From Vibrio coralliilyticus (lineage in GTDB: Bacteria > Pseudomonadota > Gammaproteobacteria > Enterobacterales > Vibrionaceae), in the NCBI RefSeq assembly GCF_024449095.1, contig NZ_CP024627.1:1860001-1924000 (forward strand): a stretch of 64,000 bases of DNA. The letters run 5' to 3'. Positions 13,590 through 45,087 of this stretch are shown piece after piece. The notes beneath the pieces were generated by a model. The model had not been told where the DNA came from and did no database searches. It was given only the letters and a program-made list of their open reading frames with translations. Position 1 is the stretch's first letter. Every line of letters starts with the position of its first letter. A program made the position numbers and the translations under genes.

Positions 13590-13991
13590 ATGCATGTAAT
13601 CCCAATCTACGCAAGCGCAGGTGTATCAGGTTTTGAGTCACCTGCCGCTGAATACGCTCAACTTGGTTGTGACCTGAATGAATTCCTTATAGATCACCCA
13701 AGCTCAACTTTTATCGGTCAAGCTAAAGGCGATTCGATGCAGGGGGTTGGTATTTTTGATAATGATATTTTGATTGTAGACCGCTACCCTACCGCTCAAC
13801 ATCTAGACATAATCGTTGCAAACATAAATGGTGAGTTTGTATGCAAGCAATTCGACTTAACCAAGCGATTACTACTTTCTGCCAATCCAAAGTATCGTCC
13901 TGTTCCGATTATGGAATATGACACATTTTCGATAGAAGGCGTCGTTATACGCTCCATTCGCTGCTTTAGGCCTTGTTACTTGTTGGACTAA
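13590..13991 (+). CDS. umuD: UmuD-type translesion synthesis accessory protein
   Basis: The protein has 133 residues of the LexA/UmuD S24 peptidase family. The self-cleavage site is Ala10-Gly11 (ASAGVSGF), the nucleophile Ser49 (KGDSMQGVG) and the general base Lys86 (GEFVCKQF). RecA-stimulated cleavage would yield UmuD', which joins UmuC in DNA polymerase V. The segment before the cleavage site is only ten residues, about 14 shorter than in E. coli UmuD. The gene follows a LexA box and is one base from umuC. The start has little Shine-Dalgarno complementarity. Confidence 0.93.
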   Translation: MHVIPIYASAGVSGFESPAAEYAQLGCDLNEFLIDHPSSTFIGQAKGDSMQGVGIFDNDILIVDRYPTAQHLDIIVANINGEFVCKQFDLTKRLLLSANPKYRPVPIMEYDTFSIEGVVIRSIRCFRPCYLLD

Positions 13992-13992
13992 T

Positions 13993-15252
13993 ATGTTTGC
14001 TCTCGTTGACTCTAATAGCTTCTATTGCTCTGCAGAGCAAGTGTTTCGGCCAGAATGGAGAGGAAAACCTGTCGTTGTTCTATCAAACAATGATGGTGTG
14101 ATTGTGGCGGCAAACCGACAAGCAAAAATAGCAGGTATTCCTAAATTTACGCCCTATTTCAAAGTTAAAAACCTTTGTGAGCAAAAAGGGGTCATTGTTT
14201 GCTCATCTAATTATGAGCTTTACGCTGATTTATCATCAAAGATGATGGACGTAATAGGACGCTTTGCACCTCAACAGTATGTTTACTCAATCGATGAGTC
14301 GTTCCTTTCATTTGAGCGTGTTTACCCTGCAATTCCTGACTTAAAAGAGCATGGCTTAAAACTGCGTAAAGCTGTTTGGAAAGAGTGCCGTTTACCTGTT
14401 TGCGTTGGTATTGCACCTACCCTCACCCTTTCAAAAATCGCGAACCACTGCGCTAAAAACATTCGTGATCATCAGGGAGTGTGCGTGTTGGGAAATCAGC
14501 AAGATATAGACAAGGTTCTGTCTTTATTCGAAGTTTCTGACGTCTGGGGTATTGGCAGGCGCTTAACTACTCACTTTAAACACTTAGGCATTACTACTGC
14601 CCTGCAGTTAAAGAATTACCCTGTTGGTCTTGCTCGTAAAAATTTTAACGTTGAAGTCGAACGAACAGTGAGAGAATTAAATGGTGAAAGCTGTAAAGTA
14701 TGGGATAACGTTCAGCAAGATAAAAAACAGATTTACTCAACTCGCTCTGTGGGTGAACGAATCAAGACACTTGATGAATTGACTCAGGCACTAAGCCAAC
14801 ATGCAAACATCGCTTCCCGTAAAGCACGTAACCAAAAGTCACTTTGTAAAGTGGTGCTTTGTTTCGCTGCAAGTAGCTCTTATGATGAAAAAACATTTTC
14901 ATATAGAGCCATACACCGCTTCGCTTACCCGACTTCTGACGTGAATCAGATAACTAAAGCTTGTGTTGCCATGGCTAAAGAAATCTATAAGCCTGGTGTG
15001 CCTTACTATAAAATTGGGGTGGGTTTGCTTGATTTGGTTGATGGTAGATATACTCAACCTGACCTTTTCAACCCTGAACCAAATAACGATAAGCTTATGT
15101 CTGTGTTTGATAACATCAATGACCGATACGGAAGAGATACTGTTTTTCTTGGCGCTCAGGGAATACAGAAAAAATGGGCGATGCGTCGAGATTTGCTCAC
15201 TAGACAATACACAACGAACTGGCAACACATACCTATTATTGCGTGTAAGTAA
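13993..15252 (+). CDS. umuC: DNA polymerase V catalytic subunit UmuC
   Basis: The protein has 419 residues of the Y family of polymerases. Catalytic acidic residues are Asp6 (LVDSNSFYCS) and Asp101-Glu102 (YSIDESFLSF). The helix-hairpin-helix region is near DVWGIGRRL. A little-finger domain and C-terminal extension carry the beta-clamp motif QPDLF near residue 355. Length and motif order match intact UmuC. It is translated one base after umuD and is expected to be LexA-controlled with it. Confidence 0.95.
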   Translation: MFALVDSNSFYCSAEQVFRPEWRGKPVVVLSNNDGVIVAANRQAKIAGIPKFTPYFKVKNLCEQKGVIVCSSNYELYADLSSKMMDVIGRFAPQQYVYSIDESFLSFERVYPAIPDLKEHGLKLRKAVWKECRLPVCVGIAPTLTLSKIANHCAKNIRDHQGVCVLGNQQDIDKVLSLFEVSDVWGIGRRLTTHFKHLGITTALQLKNYPVGLARKNFNVEVERTVRELNGESCKVWDNVQQDKKQIYSTRSVGERIKTLDELTQALSQHANIASRKARNQKSLCKVVLCFAASSSYDEKTFSYRAIHRFAYPTSDVNQITKACVAMAKEIYKPGVPYYKIGVGLLDLVDGRYTQPDLFNPEPNNDKLMSVFDNINDRYGRDTVFLGAQGIQKKWAMRRDLLTRQYTTNWQHIPIIACK

Positions 15253-15450
15253 TACTCTATATGTTGTAGAACGTCTATCCTACAAGATAGCCATGACTTA
15301 ACTCACGCATTCACTTACATCATTGTTGTCCAGAAATGAGCCTATACGTGACGAGCTCAACCCACATTATGCATATCAGAACGCTCAAAGTACGTATGTG
15401 CCCTTACAACTTAAAGGGGAACTTTTCGTTACGCGTCCCCCCTTGCTGAC
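15253..15450. other. Region between umuC and the trpS leader peptide
   Basis: There is no coding frame here. It contains a small hairpin (TTGTAG/CTACAA near 15263-15285) soon after umuC. Just before the leader peptide AAGGGG (about 15414-15419) can pair with CCCCTT (about 15439-15444). The promoter of the trpS transcript must lie here or in umuC, but no clear -35/-10 pair was recognised. Confidence 0.35.
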
Positions 15451-15510
15451 ATGAACTTTCTATTGAAAGTGGGGGTTCAACGATTTGTTTTTATGGATGT
15501 TTATTGGTAG
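15451..15510 (+). CDS. Candidate regulatory leader peptide ending Tyr-Trp-stop, upstream of trpS
   Basis: This 19-codon frame reads MNFLLKVGVQRFVFMDVYW. Its only Trp codon is the last sense codon, directly before TAG. A second in-frame ATG (15493) would give the pentapeptide MDVYW with the same ending. The frame sits in the 421-base leader of a tryptophanyl-tRNA synthetase gene and is followed after one base by a hairpin. The position suggests a ribosome-stalling sensor of tryptophan or charged tRNA-Trp. No good Shine-Dalgarno precedes either ATG, and translation is not proven. Confidence 0.5.
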   Translation: MNFLLKVGVQRFVFMDVYW

Positions 15511-15511
15511 C

Positions 15512-15581
15512 TTGTTCGAATGAACAATATTTCTGCACTCACTTCATCTTTCTTCTGGTGGCGCTCTAATTAGAGCGGCAC
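15512..15581 (+). promoter_or_regulatory. Two leader hairpins downstream of the leader peptide
   Basis: Hairpin 1: TTGTTC (15512-15517) pairs with GAACAA (15522-15527). A ribosome paused at the Trp or stop codon would cover it. Hairpin 2: GTGGCGCTCT (15558-15567) pairs with AGAGCGGCAC (15572-15581) around AATT with one G-G mismatch. No T-run follows hairpin 2, so it looks structural rather than a simple terminator. Confidence 0.5.
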
Positions 15582-15600
15582 TGAATTCTTACATTCTTTA

Positions 15601-15671
15601 GCTGCTGGAAGGTAGCTAAGTATGTCACTTCTTTTATCTCCAGTAGCAACCTATTTAACTAGGAGATAAAA
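15601..15671 (+). promoter_or_regulatory. Shine-Dalgarno-sequestering stem of trpS with competing helix
   Basis: TTTTATCTCC (15632-15641) pairs perfectly over 10 bp with GGAGATAAAA (15662-15671). This buries the trpS ribosome binding site GGAG, which lies eight bases before the ATG. A competing helix is possible: GCTGCTGG (15601-15608) with CCAGTAGC (15640-15647), eight pairs with one G-U. It would take the two C residues that lock the GGAG. These mutually exclusive pairings are what a translational switch needs. Confidence 0.6.
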
Positions 15672-15673
15672 TC

Positions 15674-16696
15674 ATGCTGAAAAAGCAATCAACTGAAATA
15701 CGAGAAGTTATCTTAACCGGAGATAGAGCGACCGGCCCATTGCACCTCGGACATTATGTCGGGTCTTTAAAACAACGTGTCGACCTACAGAACACTCATG
15801 AGCAAACCATTCTTGTTGCGGATATACAAGGCCTTACTGATAACGCTCATAACCCGAAAAAGGTATCTTCGAATATCCTAAATGTAGTTGCAGATTACTT
15901 AGCAGTCGGTATAGACCCGTCTAAAACGACCATTTGTCTACAGTCACAACTACCAGCTCTTGCCGAATTAACTATGTATTACAGTAATCTCGTTACTATC
16001 AGCCGGCTAGAGCGGAACCCAACGGTCAAAAGTGAAATTCAAAACAAAGGATTTGAACGTTCTATTCCAGCAGGTTTTCTGACCTACCCTATATCTCAAG
16101 CTGCTGATATCACAGCTTTTAATGCCTCTCTAGTTCCCGTTGGCGATGACCAGATACCCATGCTAGAACAAACCAATGAGATAGTGAGGAAAATAAACTC
16201 ATTAGCTGGAAAAGATGTCTTAAATGAATGCCGTCCTTTACTCAGTAACGTTCCCCGTTTACCTAGTACAGATGGTAAAAATAAGATGTCTAAGACGATG
16301 GGCAATACCATTAATCTCGGTGCCAGTGAAAAAGAAATCTCTGTAGCGGTCAAATCCATGTATACCGACTCCAATCACCTGAGAATAGAAGAGCCAGGGT
16401 CCATCGAAGGCAATGTCGTGTTTACCTACCTTGATGCTTTCCATCCAGATAAGGATTATATCAGCCAACTCAAAGAACATTATCAACGCGGCGGGCTGGG
16501 TGATGGCACAACAAAAAAAATACTAGAAGAATGCTTACAAGAGCTACTTAAGCCCATCAGAGAAAGAAGACAGATGTTTCTTAATGATCGCGCCCAATTA
16601 ATTGATGTTTTGAGGAAAGGAAGCCAAACATCTAGAGAGAAAACAGAGACCGTTCTTTTTGATATTAAAGGGAGCTTTGGACTAAATATTTTCTGA
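15674..16696 (+). CDS. trpS: Tryptophanyl-tRNA synthetase, probably a second, regulated copy
   Basis: The enzyme has 340 residues of class Ic. The HIGH motif is PLHLGHYVGS (residues 22-31) and KMSKT (204-208) serves as KMSKS. The Trp-pocket region and the Rossmann fold segment ILVADIQGLTDNA are present. It charges tRNA-Trp. Vibrio genomes carry a housekeeping trpS elsewhere, near damX, so this is probably an additional copy. Such copies can confer tolerance to TrpRS inhibitors such as indolmycin in other bacteria. It stands alone after umuDC. Its long structured leader with a Trp-ending peptide suggests induction by tryptophan starvation or inhibitor (inference). Confidence 0.88.
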   Translation: MLKKQSTEIREVILTGDRATGPLHLGHYVGSLKQRVDLQNTHEQTILVADIQGLTDNAHNPKKVSSNILNVVADYLAVGIDPSKTTICLQSQLPALAELTMYYSNLVTISRLERNPTVKSEIQNKGFERSIPAGFLTYPISQAADITAFNASLVPVGDDQIPMLEQTNEIVRKINSLAGKDVLNECRPLLSNVPRLPSTDGKNKMSKTMGNTINLGASEKEISVAVKSMYTDSNHLRIEEPGSIEGNVVFTYLDAFHPDKDYISQLKEHYQRGGLGDGTTKKILEECLQELLKPIRERRQMFLNDRAQLIDVLRKGSQTSREKTETVLFDIKGSFGLNIF

Positions 16697-22690: not shown

Positions 22691-22945
22691 AGTTGCTCCT
22701 TATCAAAATCCTGTGCTCAGCGATGACCCATCTCTGGGCCTCCTTTAAACTAAGAAAACGCAGGATAAAACCTCAACCTAACTTGAGATCAAGAACCAAT
22801 TTCTTAGATGCACCTTGTTTACGAAAGAGTCCAAATTGCTCACTCGGCCTCTAAAGGCTCTGTGTCACTTTTCCATTCCCTGCAATCCCGAAATGCACTA
22901 TGCTAAGGCCGCCCATAACAATGGGTACTTAATACATATATTTAT

Positions 22946-23078
22946 TCTCAGGGCGGGGCGAAATTCCCCACCGGCGGTATATCTTTAACAAGATGAGCCC
23001 GCGAGCGCTCGATTCGTCGAGGTCAGCAGATCTGGTGAGATGCCAGAGCCGACGGTTATAGTCCGGATGAGAGAGAAT
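22946..23078 (+). ncRNA. FMN riboswitch (RFN element)
   Basis: Hallmark RFN blocks occur in order: CAGGGCGGGGCGAAATTCCC, ACCGGCGGT, GAGCCCGCGAGCGC, GATCTGGTGAGATGCCAGAGCC, CCGACGGTTATAGTCCGGATG and GAGAGA. The element precedes ribB and should turn the gene off when FMN binds. Confidence 0.97.
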
Positions 23079-23083
23079 TGATG

Positions 23084-44765: not shown

Positions 44766-44975
44766 TGAAGACTGCAGGAGAGTGGTTATTTACCAAGTTT
44801 TAACATTTGGACAAAATAACCTACCGAAGAAGTAAATCTTTCAGGTGCTGTGAAAACAGCGAGGACTGTAGTTGGAGGAACCTCTGGAGAGAACCGTTAA
44901 ATCGGTCGCCGAAGGAGCAAGCTTCATACTATCAATGTGTGTAGTGAAACTCTCAGGCAAAAGGACAGAGGAGTG
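44766..44975 (+). ncRNA. Tandem glycine riboswitch
   Basis: Two aptamers lie in series. The first runs from GACTGCAGGAGAGTGG to about 44863 with CCGAAGAAG and CTTTCAGGTGCTGTG. The second runs from ACTGTAGTTGGAGG with CTCTGGAGAGAACC, CGCCGAAGGAGCAAGC and CTCTCAGGCAAAAGGACAGAGG. The second copy is almost base-identical to the V. cholerae element upstream of the same kind of symporter gene. In the platform, GAGTGAAA (about 44971-44978) can pair with TTTCACTC (45043-45050). Confidence 0.96.
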
Positions 44976-45087
44976 AAAAGAACAACCTAGCTATGATCGC
45001 TTTTCTGCCTGTAGCGTTTGTTGAGACTTGTCGTCTCTACCCTTTCACTCTTCTCCTTAGTAATGCTTTATCAATTAAGGGGAAATC

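Follow-up and report, generated by a model that had tools for sequence, protein, structure and literature searches.

The window, by which we mean the whole stretch of 64 000 nucleotides of Vibrio coralliilyticus DNA analysed here, carries a second gene for tryptophanyl-tRNA synthetase (TrpRS), here called trpS2. The question raised by this locus is which signal, read by which upstream element, would switch such a gene on. The original prediction proposed a leader with a Trp-ending peptide and a stem that hides the ribosome-binding site. The reading that we favour, with a probability of roughly 0.7, is that the trpS2 leader is a ribosome-mediated attenuator with tandem Trp codons, which acts mainly on translation and induces the gene when the charging of Trp-tRNA falls. 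The main structural claims of the original prediction hold, but the real system extends further, is better conserved and tells more than the description given there.

The second TrpRS gene

The trpS2 gene (15674-16696, forward strand) encodes a TrpRS II-like protein of 340 amino acids, which matches the TIGR00233 (trpS) model with 227.4 bits against a cut-off of 176.75. The nearest solved structures, 1yi8 and 2a4m, are annotated as TrpRS and TrpRS II and come from Deinococcus radiodurans. A housekeeping trpS is located elsewhere in the genome (G000:C1:3048379-3049353) and shares an identity of only 27-28% with trpS2, which bears out the earlier description of this trpS as a second copy. Judged by sequence, trpS2 is a second, divergent and auxiliary TrpRS beside the housekeeping enzyme. 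Residue 52 (15827-15829) is a glutamine in the trpS2 product and a histidine, within the DLHAIT motif, in the housekeeping TrpRS. This histidine presumably matters for indolmycin, and its replacement in trpS2 may be relevant to inhibitor resistance. We also note that two ORFs just 5' of the leader (13590-15252) resemble umuD and umuC by eye, and that the window contains an FMN riboswitch (RF00050, 122.2 bits; 22940-23082) and a glycine riboswitch (RF00504, 72.7 bits; 44874-44978).

The leader peptide

The trpS2 gene is preceded by a short ORF in which two Trp codons, those of the regulated amino acid, stand side by side. It encodes the 17-residue peptide MNNISALTSSFFWWRSN (15520-15573, forward strand, including the stop codon), in which the two adjacent control codons TGG TGG (15556-15561) do not vary in either alignment, A1 or A2. 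When the homologous loci were searched for a short ORF with TGGTGG 5' of trpS2, 148 of 159 had one; this set of loci is redundant because several species occur twice. For comparison, a tandem-Trp ORF is present in 67 of 2050 random 330-nt stretches drawn from the loci of named genera (Vibrio, Alteromonas, Planctobacterium, Paraglaciecola, Glaciecola, Shewanella, Pseudoalteromonas, Colwellia, Psychrosphaera and Motilimonas); the remaining loci are from further genomes within this family and order. Eleven loci have no such leader (L013, L041, L074, L104, L108, L140, L142 and L158-L161). Two of these, L013 and L041, are one genome counted twice, with unrelated upstream sequence near a contig end, and L074 belongs to the Clostridiaceae.

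Removal of near-identical sequences left 101 non-redundant leaders. Each peptide contains exactly two Trp residues and is 15-29 residues long, the length depending on the start codon chosen. In 79 of the 101, 15 nt separate the first letter of the first Trp codon from that of the stop codon, and the distance from the stop to trpS2 ranges from 91 to 123 nt. The WW pair is constant in this set because the leaders were picked by TGGTGG (the unselected figure is the 148 of 159 given above), and besides it no residue is constant; those that follow it vary by group (RSN, CSI, HSL, LPA, QP or CCS). That only WW is constant indicates sensing of Trp-tRNA rather than a nascent-chain arrest motif. We therefore rejected an arrest of the tnaC type, in which the nascent leader peptide would bind free tryptophan: a short Trp peptide in front of a Trp-related gene would suit it, but the variability of the peptide outside WW, both across the 101 leaders and in the residues following WW, makes it highly improbable.

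The original prediction had given the role of sensor to another frame. A 19-codon frame ending Tyr-Trp-stop, MNFLLKVGVQRFVFMDVYW, does exist at 15451-15510, but it has no counterpart among the other 158 loci, so that the homologues lack this peptide with its terminal Trp codon, which the original prediction had named as grounds for refutation, whereas the WW ORF represented by MNNISALTSSFFWWRSN is retained in 148 of the 159. The expectation of a Trp-codon leader before trpS was thus correct and the peptide named for it was the wrong one. Frames ending Tyr-Trp-stop occur within 400 nt 5' of trpS2 in five of the 159 loci, the window included; the peptides of the other four (L022 and L053, which are identical in sequence, L126 and L127) are unlike that of the window and are probably due to chance.

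Predicted promoter and transcript start

A candidate promoter lies at 15485-15513 on the forward strand. It consists of a -35 box, TTGTTT (15485-15490), which is a weak match, a 17-nt spacer and an extended -10 box, TGGTAGCTT (15505-15513), in which the hexamer TAGCTT has TGG before it and whose spacing to the leader AUG is conserved. Upstream conservation starts at the TTG about 35 nt 5' of the AUG, and the TTG of the -35 box is kept in at least 80% of 49 Vibrio/Alteromonas-like leaders, being looser in other groups. Among the 97 leaders with enough upstream sequence for this comparison, the -10 hexamer of the best promoter ends 6 nt before the AUG in 62 and 7 nt before it in 16, and the mean promoter score is 7.85 compared with 6.87 in shuffled sequence. 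A generic promoter scanner reported no promoter at 15485-15513.

The constant distance between the -10 box and the AUG suggests that transcription starts at or beside the leader AUG, at about 15520 in the window. This would account for the lack of a good Shine-Dalgarno sequence in the leader, and the frame at 15451-15510 would then sit in the promoter, outside the RNA. The Tyr-Trp peptide, although present as an open frame, is unconserved, ends within the predicted promoter and would lie 5' of the transcript. We rejected it as the sensor and assign it a very small probability.

Alternative helices of the leader RNA

The leader region folds better than expected by chance (z = -3.56 and -3.39). 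The hairpin that was originally placed just after the Tyr-Trp frame corresponds to a small palindrome, TTGTTCGAATGAACAA (15512-15527), which is paired in the predicted folds and straddles the AUG of the real leader (15520). Additional hairpins follow it, as had been described, all on the forward strand. Stem 1 (strands 1:2; 15558-15581) pairs 15558-15567 with 15572-15581, overlaps the Trp, Arg and Ser codons and encloses the stop codon. Helix 2:3 (15574-15606) pairs AGCGGC (15574-15579) with GCUGCU (15601-15606) and has an extension, GAAU:AUUC, between 15583-15586 and 15593-15596. Stem 2 (3:3'; 15591-15625) pairs 15591-15606 with 15611-15625. The sequestering stem 3 (4:5; 15632-15671), which belongs to the minimum free energy fold of the window, is the perfect 10-bp stem TTTTATCTCC/GGAGATAAAA (15632-15641 with 15662-15671) noted originally; it buries the GGAG of the trpS2 Shine-Dalgarno sequence, AGGAG (15661-15665). 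The helix that was proposed to compete with this stem is also present but is longer than the eight pairs first counted: this anti-sequestering helix, 3:4 (15601-15647), joins GCUGCUGGAAGGUA to UAUCUCCAGUAGC by 13 pairs (15601-15614 with 15635-15647), with A15609 bulged. In the predicted structures the Shine-Dalgarno sequence thus lies in a stem and an alternative helix would free it, as in a translational attenuator. Strand 3 is common to 2:3, 3:3' and 3:4, which are predicted to be mutually exclusive, 2:3 being the one whose support is weak.

Conservation was assessed in alignment A2, which comprises 65 of the 101 leaders, each taken from immediately upstream of the Trp codons through the trpS2 start codon. 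The 36 leaders outside A2, mostly more divergent, were assessed by duplex energies only, a test in which the strand 4 picked automatically was plainly incorrect in at least two leaders (L033 and L151). Stem 1 has 98.4% of its cells paired and double changes in two of nine pairs; the corresponding values for stem 2 are 84.0% and eight of 15 pairs. The seven core pairs of stem 3 are 94.3% paired in the 65 sequences, with double changes in one pair, and the predicted burial of the Shine-Dalgarno sequence in a conserved stem is thereby upheld. When all 101 leaders are considered, the stem hiding this sequence is better than shuffles (z < -2) in 61, among them none of the eight f25 leaders and one of the six f19 leaders.

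Helix 3:4 is 96.4% paired in A2, with double changes in seven of its 13 pairs. Its doubly changed cells number 46, compared with 10.3 (s.d. 2.5) in shuffles and 0-23 in slid versions; the competing helix noted originally thus shows both conservation and compensatory changes. Unguided, RNAalifold picks stem 1 together with 3:4. The helix is better than shuffled partners (z < -2) in 97 of the 101 leaders, and the native duplex has an energy of -19.2 kcal/mol, compared with -12.7 kcal/mol when partners are swapped between groups. Helix 2:3 has 95.8% of its cells paired and only two doubly changed cells in the 65 sequences, and it is stronger than shuffled sequence (z < -1.5) in just seven of 101 leaders. 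G15578, however, faces a G in stem 1 and pairs in 2:3, and it is kept in 64 of the 65 sequences though stem 1 needs no such base, which supports 2:3.

These patterns bear on whether the output could be transcriptional. In a classical attenuator of the trpL type, stem 2 would be the terminator, 2:3 the antiterminator and the stem hiding the Shine-Dalgarno sequence secondary. The strand order 1-2-3-3' is indeed that of trpL, and a T-rich tail follows stem 2 in L143 and L150. However, an intrinsic terminator scan of 15240-15700 in the window found none, and A2, with its 65 leaders, shows conservation of both 3:4 and 4:5 and covariation in 3:4, none of which a terminator needs. We consider this alternative unlikely for the leader as a whole and prefer a mainly translational output. 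In L143 and L150, which belong to family f19 and are the sole other loci scanned, stem 2 is terminator-like, and the output may therefore be transcriptional there.

Folding energetics and the proposed switch

In the equilibrium folds of the complete RNA, stem 2 plus stem 3 is favoured, and the Shine-Dalgarno sequence is shut at every ribosome position: its computed accessibility (unpaired) is 0.08 with a ribosome stalled on Trp and 0.05 with one at the stop codon. Over the 101 leaders the values are 0.192 on the first Trp and 0.145 at the stop, the former being the higher in 79. These accessibilities rule out simple thermodynamic switching by ribosome position, and a switch would therefore need kinetically controlled folding.

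Folding of the partially emerged RNA gives a different picture at each length. With the strands out to 3 present, the mean probability of 2:3 is 0.97 when a ribosome sits on Trp, 0.04 when there is none and 0.00 when it is at the stop. Once strand 3' has emerged stem 2 dominates (0.90-0.98), and when strand 4 has emerged and strand 5 has not yet, 3:4 dominates (0.76-0.98). The barriers between these structures, given as direct-path estimates averaged over 65 sequences, are 4.7 kcal/mol from 2:3 to 3:4, 9.0 kcal/mol from 2:3 to stem 2, 14.6 kcal/mol (median 17.3 kcal/mol) from stem 2 to 3:4 and 19.5 kcal/mol from 3:4 to stem 2 plus stem 3, the OFF state; these two end states lie 0.4 kcal/mol apart. 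The first of these barriers is below the third in 54 of the 65 sequences. In this model, opening of the Shine-Dalgarno sequence by a stalled leader ribosome is plausible by a kinetic route.

The same calculations contain one result which, taken alone, would imply the opposite sign. Since 2:3 and 3:4 compete for one strand, starvation might leave 2:3 together with 4:5 and so close trpS2, with ample Trp-tRNA giving 1:2 plus 3:4 and an open gene; static 2:3 + 4:5 is in fact computed to be more stable than 2:3 + 3b:4 in 53 of the 65 sequences. Against this, the full RNA prefers stem 2 plus 4:5, the OFF state, when it carries no ribosome or a ribosome at the stop, 2:3 gives way to 3:4 over a low barrier, and a TrpRS that is shut off through a shortage of Trp-tRNA makes little sense. 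We regard the reversed response as quite improbable, and consider induction of trpS2 upon falling Trp charging to be the likely one on the modelled folding.

If the direction of the response, its kinetic route by way of 2:3, the start of the transcript and the trigger in the cell are as we infer them, the switch would work as follows. The mRNA would start at or beside the AUG of the 17-residue leader with its two adjacent Trp codons. When there is enough Trp-tRNA, the ribosome would reach the stop codon and cover stem 1 or let it re-form; strand 3 would close at once on strand 3' as stem 2, strand 4 would pair with the Shine-Dalgarno sequence as stem 3 and trpS2 would stay untranslated. When Trp-tRNA is scarce, through starvation or because the housekeeping TrpRS is inhibited or failing, the ribosome would wait on the Trp codons and cover strand 1, and strand 2 would capture strand 3, with 2:3 delaying stem 2 until strand 4 arrives. 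On emerging, strand 4 would form the 13-bp pairing with strand 3, leaving the Shine-Dalgarno sequence free and allowing the spare TrpRS to be made. The switch would be set during transcription and locked afterwards.

Distribution, auxiliary status and mobility

We searched for a housekeeping trpS (E <= 1e-60) in the 66 trpS2 genomes with upstream regions read and found it in 59. The leader is present in 58 of these 59, the exception (G001) having both synthetases and no leader, and in none of the seven genomes in which a housekeeping trpS was not found (G021, G559, G470, G343, G629, G572 and G322). Four of the seven belong to a single family, and the completeness of G559 is only 79%, which leaves at most four independent cases. 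Outside the order, the trpS2-type gene is the only TrpRS found in Acinetobacter baumannii NZ_CP104448.1 and in G750, and neither has a leader. Aeromonas caviae NZ_AP026896.1, in contrast, carries the leader as well as the housekeeping gene. This co-occurrence indicates that the leader goes with auxiliary status. In L142 (G470, where a housekeeping trpS was not found) a possible relic leader with a single Trp, MLSFINLNLSVLIGWRAYFKRR, can be seen by eye.

The distribution of trpS2 is patchy. At a threshold of E <= 1e-80, 130 of the 296 genomes sampled from the family have it, as do 65 of 394 from the order (the family and order samples overlap) and two of 321 from the class, one of the latter being that of the window itself. 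Neighbouring genes are hardly shared: in a survey of 43 named loci, covering up to 3 kb per side and in some cases less, the commonest neighbour family occurs in four, and gene neighbourhood was rejected as a functional clue. A covariance model of the leader gave matches in 33 of the 394 genomes, of which 32 adjoin trpS2 and one is at a contig end; as 65 genomes of this sample have trpS2, many divergent leaders were missed by the model. In Vibrio pacinii (L073) and V. hepatarius HF70 (L076) the trpS2 match is partial (residues 10-222 and 1-163, respectively), with a WW leader still upstream.

In a plasmid collection, trpS2 has matches (E <= 1e-60) in 91 records, of which some are clearly chromosomes. 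The upstream sequence was read in five records from this collection, and the WW leader is present in those from Escherichia coli (pB379_2), Salmonella, Klebsiella and Aeromonas, but not in that from Acinetobacter. We note that enterobacterial records L162, L163 and L164 contain trpS2 together with a WW leader, and that the enterobacterial records include an IncFIB plasmid of E. coli in which IS26 lies about 1.1 kb upstream.

These observations allow a broader reading, which we put forward tentatively and hold to be somewhat less probable than not. The leader may be a kinetically locked two-state switch, built around a strand with three partners and a WW pair read by the ribosome on a leaderless mRNA, that drives a spare TrpRS; gene and switch may travel together as a self-contained unit, in keeping with the scarcity of shared neighbours and the enterobacterial plasmid records, that gives its hosts an inducible second TrpRS, the switch being missing from genomes whose sole TrpRS is the spare. 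If so, such a mobile unit could counter natural TrpRS inhibitors in new hosts, and should the trpS2 product resist them, it would be a mobile, self-regulated trait of medical interest. The attenuation that we favour would by itself explain the silent second TrpRS reserve of many marine and enteric gammaproteobacteria, deployed only when the first enzyme fails. Being compact and strongly conserved, the leader would also serve as a model of kinetic switching by RNA in which no terminator takes part, and its presence would predict the auxiliary status of a TrpRS copy from DNA alone.

Comparison with known systems

The leader was not assigned to a known Rfam family. RF00513 (Trp_leader) gave no match in 15440-15700 up to E = 1, and no T-box was found in the window or, up to E = 1, in the leader. 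The sole RF00513 match of the genome is at G000:C1:1226979-1227081, so that two different Trp-codon leaders coexist in it.

The E. coli trpL leader has tandem Trp codons over strand 1, as here, but the trpS2 leader is without a terminator in the window and has two further strands, 4 and 5, which hide the Shine-Dalgarno sequence. In the translational attenuation of ermC and cat, a ribosome stalled in a leader ORF causes refolding that releases a Shine-Dalgarno sequence; the signal there is a drug-bound ribosome, whereas that of the trpS2 leader would be tRNA charging read through the WW codons. The pheST attenuator responds to Phe, controls a housekeeping enzyme and uses a classical terminator, unlike the trpS2 leader. 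For Streptomyces, Vecchione and Sello reportedly described in 2010 an auxiliary TrpRS gene that confers antibiotic resistance and is regulated by ribosome-mediated attenuation of transcription (cited in PMC4787780).

The open-access literature, which mostly excludes subscription journals, yielded in its accessible portions no description of a Trp leader before trpS in Vibrio, Alteromonas or Aeromonas and no gammaproteobacterial trpS leader that sequesters a Shine-Dalgarno sequence. A survey of cis-regulatory RNAs (PMC3766115), searched by term, likewise makes no mention of trpS in its main text. The pheST attenuator, named elsewhere as a gammaproteobacterial synthetase example (PMC1262725), resembles the present case in being leader-peptide attenuation of an aminoacyl-tRNA synthetase gene. 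The transcript of Sinorhizobium meliloti trpL is described as starting directly with the ATG of its Trp leader ORF (PMC7298713), as is predicted here for trpS2, but that leader controls trpE(G) by termination.

The closest parallels are found in Streptomyces. Attenuators before Streptomyces trpS genes, S. avermitilis trpS2 among them, were predicted in 2005 (PMC1262725), and auxiliary TrpRS has been reviewed (PMC9437257). The trpL2-trpS region of S. lividans is described as having a leaderless leader with one Trp (MMTRTCTQLWRAA) and two hairpins without a U-rich run (PMC8079986). The Streptomyces auxiliary trpS leaders resemble that of Vibrio in placing a short Trp-codon leader before trpS. 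They differ in phylum and in RNA, the effect described is on transcription, the S. lividans leader has one Trp where that of Vibrio has two, and a bistable set of helices sequestering the Shine-Dalgarno sequence is unmentioned in the available portions of PMC1262725 and PMC8079986. Control of an auxiliary trpS by a leader is thus already known from Streptomyces, and what appears to be new is the gammaproteobacterial form, in which the Shine-Dalgarno sequence is sequestered.
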